From: Myxococcales bacterium
GTDB taxonomy: Bacteria > Myxococcota_A > Polyangia > Polyangiales > Houyiibacteriaceae
Reading direction: 5' to 3'
Length of the DNA stretch: 34,036 bases
Assembly (NCBI GenBank): GCA_024643985.1
Contig: JAHELW010000010.1
Coordinates: 1 to 34,036 of the forward strand
The position numbers were made by a program, and so were the translations under genes. The notes under the pieces were generated by a model. That model did no database searches, was not told the origin of the DNA, and saw only the letters and a list, made by a program, of their open reading frames with translations. Below, in pieces: positions 20,099-28,916 of this stretch (positions within the stretch are counted from its first letter, which is position 1; each line of letters begins with the position of its first letter).

Positions 20099-21571
20099 AT
20101 GGGCAAGCCAACCGGTTTCAAGGAATTTCCCCGGGAGACGATCCCGTATGGCGATCCGATCGAACGGATTTCGGGGTGGGACGAGTTCCTGGTCGACGTT
20201 CCCGTGGAGCACCTGAAGAAGCAGGGCGCACGGTGCATGGACTGCGGGGTTCCGTTCTGCCAATCGGCGACCGGCTGTCCAATCGACAACCTCATCCCGG
20301 AGTGGAACGACCTCGTCTATCGCGGCCGGTGGCGAGAGGCGCTCGACCGGCTTCACAAGACCAACAACTTCCCCGAGTTCACCGGCCGTGTGTGCCCTGC
20401 ACCGTGCGAGGGCGCCTGCGTGCTCGGCATCAACGAGCCGGCGGTCGCGATCAAGAACATCGAGTGCGCGATCGTCGACAAAGGCTTCGAGGAGGGCTGG
20501 ATTCAACCCGAGCCGCCCGAGGAGCGAACCGGAAAGAAGGTCGCAATCATCGGAAGCGGACCGGCGGGGCTCACCGCGGCACAACAGCTGAATCGCGCCG
20601 GGCACACCGTGACGGTCTACGAGCGAGACGACCGCATCGGCGGCCTTCTCACATACGGCATTCCGAACATGAAGCTCGACAAAGACATCGTCGAGCGGCG
20701 CCTCGACATCATGCGTGCCGAGGGCATCGAGTTCGTCACCAATGCGCACGTCGGCGTGAACAAAGACGCGCAAAAGATTCGGAGCGAAAACGACGCTCTG
20801 GTCCTTGCCTGTGGGGCGACCCGGCCGCGCGACCTCCCGATTCCGGGGCGCAAGCTCAATGGAATTCACTTCGCCATGGATTTCCTGCTCAAGAACACCA
20901 AGAGCCTCATGGACAGCAAGCTCGAGGACGGTGCGTACATCAGCGCCAAGGGCAAGCGCGTGATCGTCATCGGTGGAGGTGACACGGGAACAGATTGCAT
21001 CGGCACATCGTTGCGCCACGGATGCACCTCGCTCGTGAACTTCGAGCTCTTGCCGCGGCCCCCCGGGGAGCGTGCGCCCGACAACCCGTGGCCCGAGTGG
21101 CCGGTGGTCTTCCGCGTCGACTACGGTCACGAGGAAGCGGCTGCCAAGTTTGGAAAGGACCCACGGGAGTACCGCATCTTGAGCAAGCGCTTTCTCGACG
21201 ATGGGAATGGAAACGTCGCGGGCGTAGAGACCGTGCGCGTCGAATGGTCGAAGGACGATGAAGGCAAGTGGCAGATGGGCGAGGTTCCAGGCAGCGAAGA
21301 GATCTTCGAGGCGGACCTCGTCTTCCTGGCGATGGGCTTTCTCGGTCCCGAGGACACGCTCGCGGAGCAGCTCGGTCTCGAGCGCGATCCGCGAAGCAAC
21401 TTCAAAGCCGAGTACGGTGACTACGCAACCACTACCGAGGGCGTGTTCGCCGCGGGCGACTGCCGGCGCGGCCAGTCCCTCGTCGTATGGGGCATCGCCG
21501 AAGGCCGAGGCGCCGCCCGCGCGGTCGACACCTACCTGATGGGCCGCTCCGACCTCCCCGCCCCCGACTAG
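20099..21571 (+). CDS. gltD: glutamate synthase small subunit, NAD(P)H-oxidising
   Basis: The 490-residue protein supplies electrons to GltB. The N-terminal domain has the Cys cluster for two 4Fe-4S centres (Cys46, 49, 54 and 60 in [18 protein letters not shown], then [12 protein letters not shown]). Two Rossmann folds follow: FAD-binding [21 protein letters not shown] and NAD(P)H-binding [15 protein letters not shown]. The end [21 protein letters not shown] is the characteristic flavin-contacting stretch. ATG 20099 follows the gltB stop by 3 bases, with GGAG about 6-7 bases upstream, so translation is probably coupled. The TAG stop at 21569-21571 directly abuts the nested palindrome. Confidence 0.97.
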
Positions 21572-21736
21572 GGGGACATTCTCCCCCTCCAAAACCCCAA
21601 CCCTTTCAACCACTTACGACCCACACCGCGAAAACCCAACCCGCACCTCTGCGCAGCGGAGCCGCGCCTCGGGTTTTCGCGGTGTGGGTCGTAATGTGTT
21701 GAAATTAGATGGGTTTTGGGTGGGGAGAATGTCCCT
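21572..21736. repeat. 164-bp nested imperfect palindrome (REP/MITE-like element)
   Basis: Two 65-base arms, 21573-21637 and 21671-21735, are inverted copies of each other without gaps. I count 54 of 65 matching positions, and the innermost 24 bases (ending at CGCGAAAACCC) are identical. Each outer tip is itself a small palindrome: GGGGA-CATTC-TCCCC on the left and GGGGA-GAATG-TCCC on the right. The 33-base loop contains CTGCGCAG. The element fills almost all the space from the gltD stop to the next gene. No transposase is encoded, so it would be non-autonomous. It may also act as a 3' stabiliser or attenuator for gltBD mRNA; there is no U-tract of an ordinary intrinsic terminator. Confidence 0.8.
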
Positions 21737-21751
21737 GTTAGAGTTTCATAC

Positions 21752-23737
21752 GTGGGACGGGGCTTGGCTTTTGGGGCGCTGCTTTGGGCGCTGACGTGGA
21801 GCGGCGTGGCGCTGGCGCACGGCACGTTCGTCGTCAACACGACCGACGACCACGACGACGGTGCCTGCGAACCGGCTCCGGAAGGGGACTGCACGCTGCG
21901 CGAAGCGATCCTCGCCGCGAACGCTCTGGTGAACGATCATCCCGACGCGCCGGACACGGTTGGCTTCGATTTCGGACTCGGCGCGCAGAGCCCTTTCACG
22001 ATCGCGCTCGAGTCGCCTCTTCCGCCCGTGATCGAGGGCACCTCGTTCAACGGAGGCTCCGAGCCTCGGTACATCGTCGGCACCGATCACGTGCCCGTCA
22101 TCATCATCGATGCCGGGGGCTTCGATCACGTCTTCGAGCTTCGTTCCGATGCAACGCTCGTCATCGCGCTTGCCTTCACCAACGCCGCGGTGTCCGCGAT
22201 CGATGCCGAGGGTGCTGACTACGTTCTAATTCAGGGATGCTACTTCGGTGTCGATCCGCAGACCGGAGTGCCGCTTCACTCCTCGATCGCGTCGCCAGCG
22301 TTCGGCTCTCACGCAATTCACGTTCGCGACACGTTTCGGCCGCGCATCGGCGGATCGACCGAGATTTCCAGAAACGTGTTCGGTGGTGCAGGCGCGGAGG
22401 CCGTTCTCGTCGAGCGCTCTGACTCGCTCCTGCTCGAAGGCAACTTCATCGGAGTCGATGGCACGGGCTTCGAGGGGCGGCCCAACGCTCTGCTCGACAC
22501 CTCGGCCTTTTCGGTCGGGGTTTTCGACTCGAGCTCCGTCGACGTTTGGGACAACGTGATATCCTCGGGATTCGGCGGCGGACTTCAGCTCGTCGACGCG
22601 CCTGATGCTTCCATCGAACGGAACCTCATCGGCCTCGATGCCGTTGGGCGCACGGGTCTCGCGAACGGCGCCACCGGCATTTCGATCGCGGGCGACGTTG
22701 CGGGTCTCGCGATTTACGACAGCGTCATCAGCGCCAACCAGGGTCCCGGCGTAACGTGCGAGCCCGCCACCACCGGACCGTGGCGCATGGAGCGCAGCGT
22801 CGTCGGCGTAGACGCCGCGCAAAGCGACGTCGTTCCGAACGCGGGCGACGGCGTGCTGATCGAGTCGACCTGCACCGAGGCCACCATAGGCTCGGACCGT
22901 TCGAGAAAAGGCAACCTGATCGCGCACAACGAAGGCGCTGGGGTGCGGTCCGTGGATGGGGTTGCAACGGTTCGCGGCAACACGATCTTCCTCAACCAGG
23001 GGCTGGCCATCGACACCGGACCCGCGGGCAGAAACTCGAACGATGGTGCTCCGGGTACTCCGCCCATCAACTATCCTGACTCCGGCGAGCTAACCTTGGA
23101 GGATGCAAGCCTCACCGTACGAGCGTGCGTCTCACCGGGCGCAACCGTCGAGGTATTCGAGGCACTCTCGAGCGAAACGGAGCCAGTGGGTGCCCTCCGC
23201 TACCTCGGTGCGGCGGTCGAAGGCAGTGAGCAGGATACGGATGCCGCTACCGGGTGTAGCGTTGCGAACGACGCCGGTTTCGAGGTCACGCTTGCCGTCG
23301 AAGCGCCCGTCGCCGCCCTCGTGCTGACGGCGACGCATGAACAACACACGTCGGAGCTCTCCGACCCGATCGCGCCAGCGACTCCGGTCGAGCCTTCGGA
23401 CTTTTGCGAGAGCAGCGCCGACTGCACGATCGATGCGCCGATTTGCGACACCGTGTTTCGACGCTGCGTGGCTTGTATTGACGACGCGGGCGAAGGCCAA
23501 GTGGACTCCGGGTGCCTGCCCGAGCGTCCTCAATGCGACGGGGGCTTCGCGGGGCGGGGCTGCATCGAGCTGCCCGGCGATCCTTCTCCACCAAGACCGC
23601 AACCGCCGTCGGGTGCTGCTTCCGGGGGCTGCGCGACTACCCCGATGGGTGGGTCGAGTTGGTCGTTTCTGCCCTGGATCTTGGTCGCTTTAGTCACTCT
23701 GCGAAAAAAGCGGAATTTATTACGCAGTATTTATTGA
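21752..23737 (+). CDS. secreted CSLREA-type beta-helix protein with MYXO-CTERM-like sorting tail
   Basis: GTG 21752 gives a 661-residue protein with a signal peptide ending VALA near residue 22; the upstream in-frame TTG would place coding sequence inside the palindrome. VNTTDDHDDGAC and CTLREAILAANA (about residues 29-58) match the CSLREA N-terminal domain found on surface beta-helix proteins. Residues about 100-420 hold irregular right-handed beta-helix turns (SIERNLIGLDAVGRT, RGNTIFLNQG, LLEGNFIGVDGTG). A Cys-rich segment lies at about 550-610. The C-terminus has Gly-Gly-Cys (about Cys627), a hydrophobic span and a Lys/Arg cluster, the layout of MYXO-CTERM-type sorting signals. It is probably displayed on the outer surface, in tandem with a second protein of this type 85 bases downstream. 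Confidence 0.82.
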   Translation: MGRGLAFGALLWALTWSGVALAHGTFVVNTTDDHDDGACEPAPEGDCTLREAILAANALVNDHPDAPDTVGFDFGLGAQSPFTIALESPLPPVIEGTSFNGGSEPRYIVGTDHVPVIIIDAGGFDHVFELRSDATLVIALAFTNAAVSAIDAEGADYVLIQGCYFGVDPQTGVPLHSSIASPAFGSHAIHVRDTFRPRIGGSTEISRNVFGGAGAEAVLVERSDSLLLEGNFIGVDGTGFEGRPNALLDTSAFSVGVFDSSSVDVWDNVISSGFGGGLQLVDAPDASIERNLIGLDAVGRTGLANGATGISIAGDVAGLAIYDSVISANQGPGVTCEPATTGPWRMERSVVGVDAAQSDVVPNAGDGVLIESTCTEATIGSDRSRKGNLIAHNEGAGVRSVDGVATVRGNTIFLNQGLAIDTGPAGRNSNDGAPGTPPINYPDSGELTLEDASLTVRACVSPGATVEVFEALSSETEPVGALRYLGAAVEGSEQDTDAATGCSVANDAGFEVTLAVEAPVAALVLTATHEQHTSELSDPIAPATPVEPSDFCESSADCTIDAPICDTVFRRCVACIDDAGEGQVDSGCLPERPQCDGGFAGRGCIELPGDPSPPRPQPPSGAASGGCATTPMGGSSWSFLPWILVALVTLRKKRNLLRSIY

Positions 23738-23760: not shown

Positions 23761-23822
23761 CTTGGGTGGACTGGGAGTCGCGAGGCAGCTCCGCTTCGCG
23801 CCAAGAGCCTTGGGGGTATCAC

Positions 23823-26800
23823 GTGCGAAATTTCCTTGTCGGCCGACTCGCCATCGCGTGTCTGACGCTCGCAGCAGTCTCCGGATGGTCGGGGGAAGCC
23901 AGCGCGAGCCACTTTCGCCATGGCACAATCAACTGGCGAACACCCGACCCGGACGACTTCCCACTGCGCGTCGAGTTCACCGTCACGACCAGCTGGCGGA
24001 GCAGCTTCGTCGGGTCGACCAATTTGGACTTCGGAGACGGCACGCTGAACGGCTCCGTGCTCGGCACCACGATCGGTACCGGCGTCGACAACAACGGCAA
24101 CGCCTACACGACGACGCAGTACGTGGTCACTCACGACTATGCGACCGAAGGCGAGTACACCGCGTTCTTCGCTTCCTGTTGTCGCGTTGCTGGGCTCGTC
24201 AACGGCTCCGAGCAGAATTTCCGCGTAGAGACGACGGTCGGCCTTGGTGATGGAAACACCGCACCACTCGCGACTGCATCAACCGCGATTCTCCAACTCG
24301 AGCGGGGTGCGGTTCGCACGCACGACTTGGTGATGTTTGACGCCGACAGCGATCCGGTCAGCTGCCGTTTCGCCACCGCGGCCGAGTCGGGTCTCAACCC
24401 GGGAGATGAGATTCCGGCTGTCCCGGCCGACGGCGAACAACCCACCACCAGCACTCCGTCCGCAAATCAGTGCCGCATCACTTGGGACCTCACGAACGCC
24501 GTGGGTGGGCAGCAGTACGTGCTCCACGTCGTGCTCGAATCGACGCACGGGAGCCCTTCGATTCAGAGCAAGACCGCACTCGACCTGCTCGTCGAAATCA
24601 CCTCGGAGCCGATCCCCGCGTGCCCGGGAGGGGGCGTCTACTCGATTCCCGTGAGCACTCCGTTCAGCCGGGTGCTAAGCGCCTCCGACCCCGGCAACGA
24701 TCTGACGCTCAGCGCGATCGGACAGCCCTCCGGGTCGACTTTCGCGCCCGGTCTGGGGACGACGGCTCCAAGCCCATTGAGCACCACGTTCGACTGGACG
24801 CCCGGCGTTTCGTTCAGCGGAACGACACAGTTCATGCAGGTCAACTTCACCAATCCGCAAAACGTCACCGGCACCTGCGCGCTCGTCCTCTTCGTCGAGC
24901 CGATCTGCGGCAACGGTGACCGCGAAGTGGGCGAGGCATGTGACGACGGAAACAACCTTCCCGGCGATGGCTGCAACCCGATGTGTCTTCTCGAGCTCAC
25001 CGAGATCTGCAACAGCGACGGCGAGTGCGAGAGCGGCGTCTGCGACCTCACCGAAACGACACCAGTCTGCGAGCCTGCCGACGTCTGCGGCAACAGCAAA
25101 GTCGAGACGGGAGAGGGCTGCGACGATGGCGGGATCACCGCGGGAGATGGCTGCAACGCCGTTTGCCTCGTGGAAGACGGCTCCGAATGCGGAGCCAGCG
25201 CCGATTGCGAAAGCGGGGTCTGCGACCCGAACGAGGCACCACCCGTGTGCGAGCCGGCGGACACGTGCGGCAACGGGACCGTGGAATCCGGAGAGACCTG
25301 CGATGACGGCAACGCGTCGGCGGGCGATGGTTGCAACAGCAGCTGCTTCAAGGAGCTCGGGGCGGCCTGCAGCGCGAGCGCGGAGTGTGCGAGCACCGTC
25401 TGCGACACGGTCGGCAGCAATACCTGTGAACCTGCCGACACGTGCGGAAACGGCGTCGTAGAGCTGGGCGAGGTCTGCGACGACGGCGGCACTGCAACCG
25501 GCGACGGCTGCGACGCGAGCTGCCTCCTCGAGGTGGGCTCCGCGTGCACGTTGGGCGCCCAATGCGCCACGGGGCTCTGCGATGCTGGCGGCCTCGGCTG
25601 CGTCGTCTGCTTCGACGATCAGGCGGGGACGGCCGTCGATTCGGGGTGCGGAGGCGTGGCGCCGTACTGTGACGCGAGCGGCGTCTTCCCGCTGTGCGTA
25701 GCCGGCTGCGCCGATGACGGCGCCGGCGCAACCGATATCAACTGCTCTGGCAGCGACAACGCCTGCGATGAGAGCGGCACGAATCCGGTCTGCGTCGACT
25801 GCACGGAAACAGCCGACTGCGCGGTCGGTGACGCGTGCAACGTCGCAACCAACGCCTGCGTAGAAGGCTGCTTCGATGACACCGACTGTCGTACGCCGGG
25901 ACTTGCCGTCTGCGACACGTCGAGCTCCACGCCCGGTGCCTGCGTGACTTGCATCAACGACCAGGTCGGCGCCGTCTCCGACGAGGGATGCATCGATGCC
26001 GGTCTCCCCGTGTGCAACGGCGCGCCGGGTGAGGCGGGAACCACCTGTTCCTTCTGCATCGACGACATGAGCGGTCTCTCGATGGACACGGGCTGTACGA
26101 GCTCCGGGATGGCGCTTTGCGACACCTCGGTGCCCGGCGGCGCCTGCGTCGAGTGCCTTTTCGATGACGACTGTCCGGGGCTTCAGGTCTGCACCGTGGA
26201 TCAAGAGTGCGACTACCCAGATACCGATGGGGACGGCCTCAACGACGTCATCGACGTCGACGATGACGGCGACGGGATCCTCGACGTCGACGAGGGCGGC
26301 GGTACGGACTGGTCGCTCGACGGCGATGGCGACGGCGTTCCCGACTACGCTGACCCGGATGCCGTGAGCTGCACCGACGGAGATGGCGACGGCATTTGCG
26401 ACACGCTTCCAGTCGAAGTCGATTCCGACGGCGACGGCGTGCCGAACCACCGCGACCTCGACAGCGACGGCGATGGTCTTCCGGATACCACCGAAGCAAA
26501 CGACGCGAACGGCGACGGCATCGCGGACGTGGCCCCGGTTGGAAACGATGCCGATGGTGATGGCCTCGATGACGCATTTGATGCGGATTGCGCCGGCATG
26601 CCTCTCGGGTGCGCCGCGGATGGAGTCGTAGCGGCCGAGCCCGACCGCGACGCCGACGGCGCTCCTGACTACCTCGATGCCGATAGCGACAACGATGGTC
26701 TTCTCGACCGCGTCGAGGGCTTCGACGGCAACGCCGATGGCGTTCCCGAGGTCATCCCGAGCGGCATTGACGCGGATGGCGACGGCGTCGACGACGCCTT

Positions 26801-28916
26801 CGACGTCGACCAAGGAGGGATCGGCCCGACCGGTCAGGATCAGGACTCCGATGGGCTACCCGACTACATCGATCAAGACAGTGACGGCGACGGTATCGCC
26901 GACCGCGCTGAATGCGAGAACCCGACGAGCTGTCCGGACACCGATGGCGACGGCACTCCCGACGTGCTCGACGTCGACTCGGACGGCAACGGAGTGCCCG
27001 ACTCGATCGAAGGTCACGATGGTGACGCGGATGGCCAGCCGGATTTCCCACCGCTTGGAGTGGATGCGGACGGGGACGGCCTCGATGACGCCTACGACCC
27101 GGACATGGCTGGCGGCGTTCCAGCGACGCTGCCCGACCTCGACGCGGACGGCACGCCCGACTTCCGAGACCCAGACGACGACGGGGATGGGATCGTATCC
27201 GATTTCGAGTGCACCGATTGGCCGGGCGATTGCCCTGACGGGGATGGCGACGGTGTACCCGACTACCTCGACCCGGATGACACACCCGTCGACACGGATG
27301 GCGACGGCATACCCGACCTCATCGAGTGCGATGGCGATATCGCGAGTTGCGGCGACAGCGATGGCGACGGCGACGCCGACTACATGGACGCGGACGATGA
27401 CGACGACGGGATTCCCACGGCAACGGAGTGCGCGGTTCGCCTCGACGCCTGTGATACGGACGGTGACGGCCTTCCCGACCATCGTGACACCGATAGCGAT
27501 GGCGACGGAATCGAAGACGCCCTGGAATGCAGCGCGGTGGTCTGTGAAGACAGCGATGGTGACGGCGCTCCGGACTATGTCGACCTCGACGCTGACGGCG
27601 ACGGGCTTCCGGACGTCGTGGAGGGTCACGACGCCGACATGGACGGCGTGCCTGATTCGACACCGCTTGGAACCGATACCGACGGCGATGGCCTCGACGA
27701 CGCGTTCGATCCCGACGACGGAGGGACGGCGGCGCCCGCTGGAGACACGGATGGCGACTCCGTGCCGGACTTCCAAGACCCGGACGATGACGGCGACGGC
27801 ATCGACACGGTGTTCGAGTGCGGCGATCCGGGCGCCGGTTGTCCCGACGGCGACGGCGACCTGGTGCCAGACGCCCTCGACCCGGACACCACGCTCAATG
27901 ACACCGATGGCGACGGAATCCCCGACGTCGTCGAATGCCCGCCGCCGGGCGATCCGGTTTCCGATCCGTTTGGTTGTCCCGATACCGACGACGATGGGTC
28001 GCCCGACTTCAACGACTCCGACGATGACGGCGACGGGATCGACACAGCTGCTGAAAACTATGATGGCGACAACGATCCCACCGACCAAGATTCGGATCGT
28101 GACGGCACGCCGGACTACCTCGACACCGACGACGACGGCGACGGTCTTCTGACTTCGGACGAATGCCCGGACGCTGGAGCCGGATGCAACGACAGCGACG
28201 GCGACGGACGGCCAGACTACCTCGGCGTGTGCGGGGACGACTTCGTCAGCGTCATCGACATCAGTACCGGCTGGGAGGAGTGCGATGACGGGAACGCGGT
28301 CGAAGGAGACGGCTGCGACGCGAGCTGTCGCCGAGAAACCGACGTGCCCGACAGCGACGGGGACGGGATCCCGGACGACGTCGAGTGTCCTGCGCCAGGC
28401 AGCCCGCTTCAGCCGAGCACCTGTCCGGACACCGATGGCGACGGCGATCCCGACTTCGACGATGCGGACGACGATGGTGACGGTATCGATACCGTCGACG
28501 AAAGCCCGGATGGGGACTCCGATCCGACGGATGACGATACCGACGGGGACGGTGTGCCGAACTATCTCGACGAGGACGACGACGGCGATGGGATTGACAC
28601 CGCTGACGAGGTCGCGTTGTCGAGTGAGCTCGAAAACGACGACGTCGATGGGGACGGCCTTCCAAACTGGCTCGACACCGACAGCGACGGCGACGGGATC
28701 GACGATTCCGACGAAGCCGACCTAGACGAAAACATGAACGGCGTTCCCGACTACCTCGAGGACGCAGACGAGGTCGGACTCTATGACGGCCTCTACATCT
28801 CTGGCGGGCGCGCTGCCGGTTGTCGCGTGGGGGCGATGACACCGGATGCGTCCGTCCACGTTCTTCTTCTGATGCTTGCCTTGTGCTTTGGGATTCGCCG
28901 CTGCCGGCGCAATTAG
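23823..28916 (+). CDS. giant secreted Cys-rich and Asp-rich repeat protein with MYXO-CTERM-like tail
   Basis: GTG 23823 follows GGGGG by about 7 bases and gives 1697 residues. A signal peptide ends near GEASA (about residue 30). Next is an N-terminal domain of about 320 residues starting SHFRHGTINW, partly PKD/Ig-like. Four DUF4215 repeats (CGNG..E.GE.CDDGN...GDGC) cover about 362-570. Cys-rich modules follow to about 795. About 47 Asp-rich calcium-binding-type repeats such as DTDGDGIPDY run from about 796 to 1650. Another DUF4215 copy sits inside that array at about 1470-1504. The tail has Gly-Cys (about 1667), a hydrophobic span and IRRCRRN, a MYXO-CTERM-like signal. It is likely a calcium-stiffened surface stalk or adhesin; the ligand is unknown. 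The long frames on other strands here are composition artefacts. Confidence 0.85.
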   Translation: MRNFLVGRLAIACLTLAAVSGWSGEASASHFRHGTINWRTPDPDDFPLRVEFTVTTSWRSSFVGSTNLDFGDGTLNGSVLGTTIGTGVDNNGNAYTTTQYVVTHDYATEGEYTAFFASCCRVAGLVNGSEQNFRVETTVGLGDGNTAPLATASTAILQLERGAVRTHDLVMFDADSDPVSCRFATAAESGLNPGDEIPAVPADGEQPTTSTPSANQCRITWDLTNAVGGQQYVLHVVLESTHGSPSIQSKTALDLLVEITSEPIPACPGGGVYSIPVSTPFSRVLSASDPGNDLTLSAIGQPSGSTFAPGLGTTAPSPLSTTFDWTPGVSFSGTTQFMQVNFTNPQNVTGTCALVLFVEPICGNGDREVGEACDDGNNLPGDGCNPMCLLELTEICNSDGECESGVCDLTETTPVCEPADVCGNSKVETGEGCDDGGITAGDGCNAVCLVEDGSECGASADCESGVCDPNEAPPVCEPADTCGNGTVESGETCDDGNASAGDGCNSSCFKELGAACSASAECASTVCDTVGSNTCEPADTCGNGVVELGEVCDDGGTATGDGCDASCLLEVGSACTLGAQCATGLCDAGGLGCVVCFDDQAGTAVDSGCGGVAPYCDASGVFPLCVAGCADDGAGATDINCSGSDNACDESGTNPVCVDCTETADCAVGDACNVATNACVEGCFDDTDCRTPGLAVCDTSSSTPGACVTCINDQVGAVSDEGCIDAGLPVCNGAPGEAGTTCSFCIDDMSGLSMDTGCTSSGMALCDTSVPGGACVECLFDDDCPGLQVCTVDQECDYPDTDGDGLNDVIDVDDDGDGILDVDEGGGTDWSLDGDGDGVPDYADPDAVSCTDGDGDGICDTLPVEVDSDGDGVPNHRDLDSDGDGLPDTTEANDANGDGIADVAPVGNDADGDGLDDAFDADCAGMPLGCAADGVVAAEPDRDADGAPDYLDADSDNDGLLDRVEGFDGNADGVPEVIPSGIDADGDGVDDAFDVDQGGIGPTGQDQDSDGLPDYIDQDSDGDGIADRAECENPTSCPDTDGDGTPDVLDVDSDGNGVPDSIEGHDGDADGQPDFPPLGVDADGDGLDDAYDPDMAGGVPATLPDLDADGTPDFRDPDDDGDGIVSDFECTDWPGDCPDGDGDGVPDYLDPDDTPVDTDGDGIPDLIECDGDIASCGDSDGDGDADYMDADDDDDGIPTATECAVRLDACDTDGDGLPDHRDTDSDGDGIEDALECSAVVCEDSDGDGAPDYVDLDADGDGLPDVVEGHDADMDGVPDSTPLGTDTDGDGLDDAFDPDDGGTAAPAGDTDGDSVPDFQDPDDDGDGIDTVFECGDPGAGCPDGDGDLVPDALDPDTTLNDTDGDGIPDVVECPPPGDPVSDPFGCPDTDDDGSPDFNDSDDDGDGIDTAAENYDGDNDPTDQDSDRDGTPDYLDTDDDGDGLLTSDECPDAGAGCNDSDGDGRPDYLGVCGDDFVSVIDISTGWEECDDGNAVEGDGCDASCRRETDVPDSDGDGIPDDVECPAPGSPLQPSTCPDTDGDGDPDFDDADDDGDGIDTVDESPDGDSDPTDDDTDGDGVPNYLDEDDDGDGIDTADEVALSSELENDDVDGDGLPNWLDTDSDGDGIDDSDEADLDENMNGVPDYLEDADEVGLYDGLYISGGRAAGCRVGAMTPDASVHVLLLMLALCFGIRRCRRN
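24906..25532 (+). repeat. four tandem DUF4215 (Myxococcus Cys-rich) repeats
   Basis: The coding sequence has four copies of CGNG/CGNS-x-VE-x-GE-x-CDDG-x5-GDGC-x3-C, each separated by a spacer with the pattern GxxCxxxxxCxxxxCD. Each unit is 140-190 bases at the DNA level and diverged at third codon positions, so the duplications are old. Confidence 0.85.
26215..28760 (+). repeat. Asp-rich thrombospondin-type-3-like repeat array in the giant protein
   Basis: About 2.5 kb of coding DNA consists of GAC/GAT-rich units encoding DxDGDGxPDxxD. I counted about 47 units by eye. Units are not identical at the DNA level, since GAC/GAT and GGC/GGG vary, so this is not a young tandem duplication. Two higher-order modules alternate, as described in the findings. 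Each Asp ladder is expected to bind Ca2+ outside the cell. Confidence 0.85.

Follow-up and report, generated by a model that had tools for sequence, protein, structure and literature searches.

A palindrome abutting the gltD stop codon in a Myxococcota MAG as a probable dimer of Y1 transposon ends

Introduction

In a MAG from the Myxococcota, a 165-base palindrome fills most of the space between gltD and the gene of a surface protein. Is this structure a regulatory hairpin that evolved with one of these two genes, or is it a copy of a mobile element? The original prediction, made from the DNA letters alone, preferred a mobile repeat, comparable to REP/BIME units moved by Y1 (RAYT) transposases or to a small MITE. 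The window, meaning the whole stretch of 34,036 nucleotides that was analyzed, is contig C138 of the source MAG, G000 (3.52 Mb, 288 contigs, 80.6% complete). The relatives used for comparison are represented by one genome per species and are mostly MAGs.

A stable palindrome flush with the gltD stop codon

The palindrome covers positions 21572-21736. As had been claimed, it starts one base after the gltD stop codon, which ends at 21571, and finishes 15 bases before the next GTG, at 21752. An inverted-repeat search ranked one inverted pair, of 80 nt around a 3-nt centre, clearly first in the whole window. The prediction of 54 paired bases out of 65 in ungapped arms was right about the palindrome and slightly off in the count, since 53 of 65 or 54 of 66 positions of the outer arms are paired (62 of 80 when extended). 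Both of the predicted tip hairpins are present; the complementarity of their loops does not count as a separate feature, since each tip is an inverted copy of the other. Folding both strands confirmed a very stable structure: the minimum free energy as RNA is -115.8 kcal/mol for the + strand and -121.9 for the - strand (z about -15 each, equalled by 0 of 200 shuffles), and the DNA fold gives a z of -15.3. The left tip hairpin also folds by itself as single-stranded DNA. Searches of Rfam and of solved structures gave no match. The features of the region are as follows.

20099..21571, + strand: gltD, glutamate synthase small subunit, whose TAG stop abuts the element (TIGR01317, 794 bits)
21572..21736, no strand: putative complete non-autonomous element with two inverted 66-bp ends and a short centre (end-to-end dimer), from the fold, the arm matching and homologous full-length copies
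21572..21586, + strand: left tip hairpin GGGGA-CATTC-TCCCC (106 exact GGGGACANNCTCCCC copies in the MAG; single-stranded DNA fold)
21587..21613, no strand: variable spacer of the left end, little conserved between copies among the listed ends
21614..21637, + strand: left inner box TTACGACCCACACCGCGAAAACCC, conserved in the MAG copies; CACACCGCGAAAAC-type inner ends are also found at type-A Y1 elements (G010, G012, G006)
21638..21670, no strand: GC-rich dimer centre without coding capacity, replaced in longer copies by 400-700 bp of other sequence
21671..21694, - strand: right inner box, an inverted copy, from the sequence and the list of ends
21722..21736, - strand: right tip hairpin, AGGGACATTCTCCCC on the - strand; both tips confirmed present
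21752..23737, + strand: CSLREA / right-handed beta-helix surface protein gene, starting 15 nt past the element (TIGR04214, PF13229)

A large repeat family in the source MAG

BLASTN with the palindrome gave 84 matches in G000, so that the sequence is a multi-copy repeat and not unique to this site. These include two further full-length copies of 162-165 bp (C225:15104-15265 and C165:10278-10442), a 154-bp copy in C181 and dozens of full 66-bp ends. The tip GGGGACANNCTCCCC occurs in 106 exact copies, while its reversed control pattern gives 0. The listed ends have a common architecture, in which a variable spacer separates the tip from an inner box near TTACGACCCACACCGCGAAAACCC, and paired ends are separated by 30 to about 700 bp. 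Several copies of 530-600 bp (C1, C100, C170 and C256) have largely similar interiors, and many contigs terminate inside such copies. Genomes were compared using a related 17-base tip pattern (the 15-base pattern with 106 copies was counted in G000 alone), which gave 59 matches in G000 and 0-14 in each relative. Tips with the loop CATTC were found in G000 only, among the matches listed, and both results fit a recent expansion in G000. We looked for target duplications in 14 paired copies and found at most TA or CTA, in two of them. Target duplication as a rule was thus rejected, and its lack in most paired copies agrees with what is expected of Y1 enzymes.

The same MAG contains a second palindromic repeat family, with ends CGGAAAAAACRCGACGYGGG (68 exact copies of the end motif, control 0) that lie about 175 bp apart when paired, for example at C1:37204-37380 (L031) and C256:1433-1608 (L009). 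It is found nested within the longer composites and also outside them, and a similar sequence without GGGGACA ends is present in G005 at the site equivalent to C224 (L268). Two loci of G000, C149:7012-7732 (L051) and C284:2367-3166 (L008), have apparent coding frames between inverted ends instead of repeat sequence; these are either chance neighbours or captured passenger genes.

Ends of the same type bracket Y1 transposase genes in relatives

The 66-bp end is present in 16 of 18 congeneric genomes and in G025, another genome of the family, and was absent from the remaining searched genomes of the family and order. In G025, G010 and G012, its matches adjoin PF01797 (Y1) genes. In most of the same-family loci examined, the Y1 gene, coding for about 210-220 aa, has inverted GGGGACA ends on both sides, some 800-880 bp apart; around a 219-aa Y1 gene in same-genus relatives, ends about 820 bp apart carry the same tip and the inner box CACACCGCGAAAAC. 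Only one end was recognised beside the Y1 gene at two loci (L099 and L106), and two others with unrelated Y1 proteins (L111 and L112) have no GGGGACA-type ends. The tip is common to two types of element and the inner box follows the type of transposase. Type-A Y1 proteins (G010, G012 and G006; 83-87% identical) go with the inner box type of the window, CACACCGCGAAAAC, and type-B proteins, 46-49% identical to type A, go with AAAGATCGCAGCGAC. The proteins score above the PF01797 cut-off and reach 53-62 bits with the NCBIfam model REP_Tyr_transpos, under its cut-off of 80. The NHxH (HUH) motif and a tyrosine in the TAYxxxNP region are conserved in them. Among distant Y1 relatives from Burkholderiales and Omnitrophota, GGGGTCA or GGGGTCG ends are found at many, not all, of the loci examined. 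In one congeneric genome, a different Y1 gene, coding for 217 aa (L101, G012:C95), is flanked on either side by GGGGACAGTCCCCTTTT, apparently a second REP/RAYT system of the genus.

In the source MAG itself, the PF01797 profile gave no match within the 80% of the genome that is assembled, in fragments, and the type-A protein as query retrieved no more than two Y1-like proteins, distant ones of 300 aa without tips nearby. The missing cognate gene is weak evidence against a Y1 origin, because the MAG is 80% complete and many of its contigs break inside repeats; loss of a short contig is a plausible reason.

Taken together, the roughly 100 copies of the end family, the congeneric Y1 genes bracketed by the same end type and, as described below, a gltD site that is empty in most relatives and an excess of ends at stop codons over the control lead us to a main reading, to which we give a probability of about 0.88: in the palindrome, the terminal repeat of a TIR-flanked Y1 (HUH, single-tyrosine) transposon of the REP-associated type ('TIRtron') is present as an inverted dimer, which makes up a non-autonomous mobile element. 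The transposase would recognise the tip hairpin on single-stranded DNA, the inner box would give element-specific recognition, and cutting and rejoining would occur near the base of the tip without target duplication. The dimer would be copied in trans, and the surviving copies would accumulate at gene 3' ends, where they are least harmful. The predicted link to a Y1 enzyme is thus supported, the genes bracketed in relatives being Y1 and not DDE genes. What does not hold is a reading as a GTAG REP, since the ends belong to the TIR-flanked TIRYT/TIRtron branch with its GGGGWSAS ends.

Ends lie at stop codons

The position of the palindrome directly after a stop codon is shared by many copies. 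We analyzed 108 distinct ends of G000 whose outer flank is 250 nt or longer, following frames open for at least 70 codons that read into the element. A stop codon lies within -12 to +1 of the tip at 69 of these ends, compared with 4.8% of control positions, a control that measures the false genes to which calls based on open-frame length and GC3 can lead. An alternative gene call by GC3 placed 57 of the 108 ends within -15 to +3. The right-hand end of the window's own copy illustrates the limits of this test, since only a probably spurious antisense frame brings it into the 69. Offsets of -2 (28 ends), where TA and the first G of the element form TAG, and of -3 (16 ends) are the most frequent. 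Stop codon usage is shifted to TAG: the 69 element-adjacent stops are 45 TAG, 12 TGA and 12 TAA, against 36, 47 and 4 in the 87 other long frames used for comparison (p = 6e-6 for the three stop codons together). Since the first G of the element re-makes TAG, an insertion inside a TAA or TAG stop leaves the protein unchanged. CTA is found in the flank of 36 of the 69 stop-adjacent ends and of 4 of the 39 others; CTA or CTAG as an intrinsic target motif was mostly rejected, given these 4 of 39 flanks away from stops.

Small gaps between convergent genes account for part of this placement. They do not cover the gltD case, because relatives have more than 100 bp between gltD and the CSLREA gene. 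We consider it possible, though rather unlikely, that stop codons, or the nearly abutting 3' ends of convergent genes, are active targets of the transposase system, rather than selection alone being at work; meeting transcripts might, for example, expose single strands on which such targeting acts at the TA of a stop codon.

Ends are found single at stop codons and as pairs at two convergent stops. This distribution, together with arms that differ in the variable spacer in some pairs, could mean that each 66-bp end is a separate repeat of gene 3' ends and that inverted pairs arise only from the convergence of neighbouring genes. We regard this as improbable, for the same long two-ended composite is repeated at C1, C100, C170 and C256 and spacers within C1 match closely, indicating that pairs move as units, and the pair in the window lies between tandem, not convergent, genes.

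Occupied and empty sites across the genus

The gltD site was compared among relatives. Nine genomes with a readable gltD end have no such palindrome: G005 and G010 have the same CSLREA gene after gltD with an ordinary spacer, G001, G008, G012, G013, G015 and G018 also lack it, and G016 has an unrelated small palindrome, AAAAAGGGGACAGTCCCCTTTTT, in its place (L129). The latter sequence or a close variant is also found in intergenic gaps of G013 and G015 (L260 and L264). In G017, the contig ends before the site. A decayed full palindrome of the same design directly follows the gltD stop codon in G007, and a partial copy is found at this stop in G004. In the gltD tree, G000 is not a neighbour of G007 and G004, and at least two changes are needed; one old insertion followed by losses and repeated insertion at the same stop codon both fit this.

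These data bear on the possibility that the palindrome arose at gltD itself, as a regulatory RNA hairpin or as a terminator serving gltBD or the surface-protein gene. A very stable fold placed exactly after a stop codon would suit such a role, as would the copies kept in G007 and G004. However, nine relatives lack the structure, the copies in G007 and G004 are decayed and partial, the same sequence stands at about 100 other places, and neither an Rfam match to the palindrome nor a U-tract terminator on its + strand was found. A gltD-specific hairpin is therefore very unlikely, and the conserved gltD-linked structure that would have favoured it was not observed. Least probable of all is that a classical DDE insertion sequence gave rise to the palindrome as its MITE, the 66-bp ends being the terminal inverted repeats; this would fit the long inverted ends and the variable centres (30 to about 700 bp) but not the lack of target duplication in most copies, the hairpin tips, which are a requirement of Y1 enzymes, or the Y1, not DDE, genes bracketed in relatives.

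The transposon-end reading can be followed at a second site, the gap of a convergent gene pair that we take, from the translated gene ends, to be mglA-like and leuS. In G012, G010, G007, G004 and G011 the site is empty and the two stops are 7-22 bp apart. The gap holds a type-B Y1 element in seven genomes, and probably also in G013, and a transposase-less dimer in G000 (276 bp) and G014 (160 bp). Solo tip-like sequences, GCGACACGCTCTCC and GGGGAGAGTGTCGCCC, remain in the gaps of G010 and G011 (L251 and L255) and are possibly excision or deletion scars.

Relation to TIRtrons, REPINs and GTAG REPs

Di Nocera et al. (2013, PMC3733652) gave the name 'TIRtrons' to Y1 genes flanked by long TIRs; they noted that these have a GGGGWSAS motif in common and that some genomes contain dispersed TIR dimers. 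The family described here resembles these TIRtrons/TIRYT (TIR-associated tyrosine transposases; PMC3733652) in the bracketing of the Y1 gene by long terminal inverted repeats in relatives, in the dispersal of transposase-less TIR dimers in the genome, and in the GGGGWSAS motif, which appears as GGGGACAC/G in relatives and in part of the G000 copies. The tip of the window copy, GGGGACAT, found in many G000 copies, departs from GGGGWSAS at the last position. The family differs from TIRtrons in that its ends are 66 bp long, with an invariant hairpin tip and an inner box that varies with the type of transposase, and in that one genome, in Myxococcota, contains more than 100 tips.

With REPINs and their RAYTs (Bertels and Rainey 2011, PMC3116915; Nunvar et al. 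2010, PMC2817692), it shares two inverted palindromic units in one hairpin, multi-copy and extragenic, that a Y1 enzyme is believed to mobilise in trans, and whole composites repeated in G000, as expected if the pair moves as a unit. Unlike in REPINs, there is no GTAG-tagged REP core of 20-40 bp: the GTAG tetranucleotide 5' of the hairpin is not a feature of the flanks of the 108 ends, and CTA or CTAG is found in flanks mainly at stop codons. The arms are also longer, and the MAG, which is 80% complete, yielded no cognate Y1 gene. The window copy is thus a transposase-less, REPIN-like end-to-end dimer of the TIRtron/TIRYT branch of REP-associated tyrosine transposases.

Stop-codon placement, the most interesting part of the case, is not new as such, because REPs close (within 20 bp) to both 3' ends of convergent genes, and GTAG REP termini that often supply the TAG stop, have already been reported (PMC3733652). 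Our family behaves like GTAG REPs in both respects; unlike in that report, the placement is measured here on a TIR family, and relatives provide empty sites with gaps of 7-22 bp. With this analysis, Myxococcota gain a large population of TIRtron-derived repeats. Its sites, some occupied and others empty over 19 congeneric genomes, make a good natural experiment for target choice by Y1-moved palindromes. With ends flush at stop codons and a shift to TAG, the question of active targeting or selection becomes directly testable.

Possible effects on the flanking genes

A strong hairpin behind a housekeeping operon may be mobile DNA and not an evolved terminator. An influence of the element on gltBD mRNA ends and on CSLREA expression, as predicted, is plausible. 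As a side effect, insertion would add a strong hairpin to the transcript after gltD, probably protecting or limiting the 3' end of the gltBD mRNA, and the native spacer before the CSLREA gene would for the most part have been lost or displaced. A search of 21450-21850 for sigma-70-like promoters found none, nor was a U-tract terminator found on the + strand of this interval. Most readable gltD orthologues have a TAG stop at the corresponding position. That the CSLREA gene truly starts with the GTG at 21752 is backed by the G005 and G010 orthologues, whose N-termini have nearly equal length up to the FxVNT motif. In these two genomes, a GGGGGG ribosome-binding-like stretch lies just before the CSLREA ATG, and it is missing in G000. 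Directly after the CSLREA gene, positions 23766-28916 of the window contain an open frame of 1716 aa rich in D-x-D-G-D repeats, and its product looks like a calcium-binding repeat surface protein.
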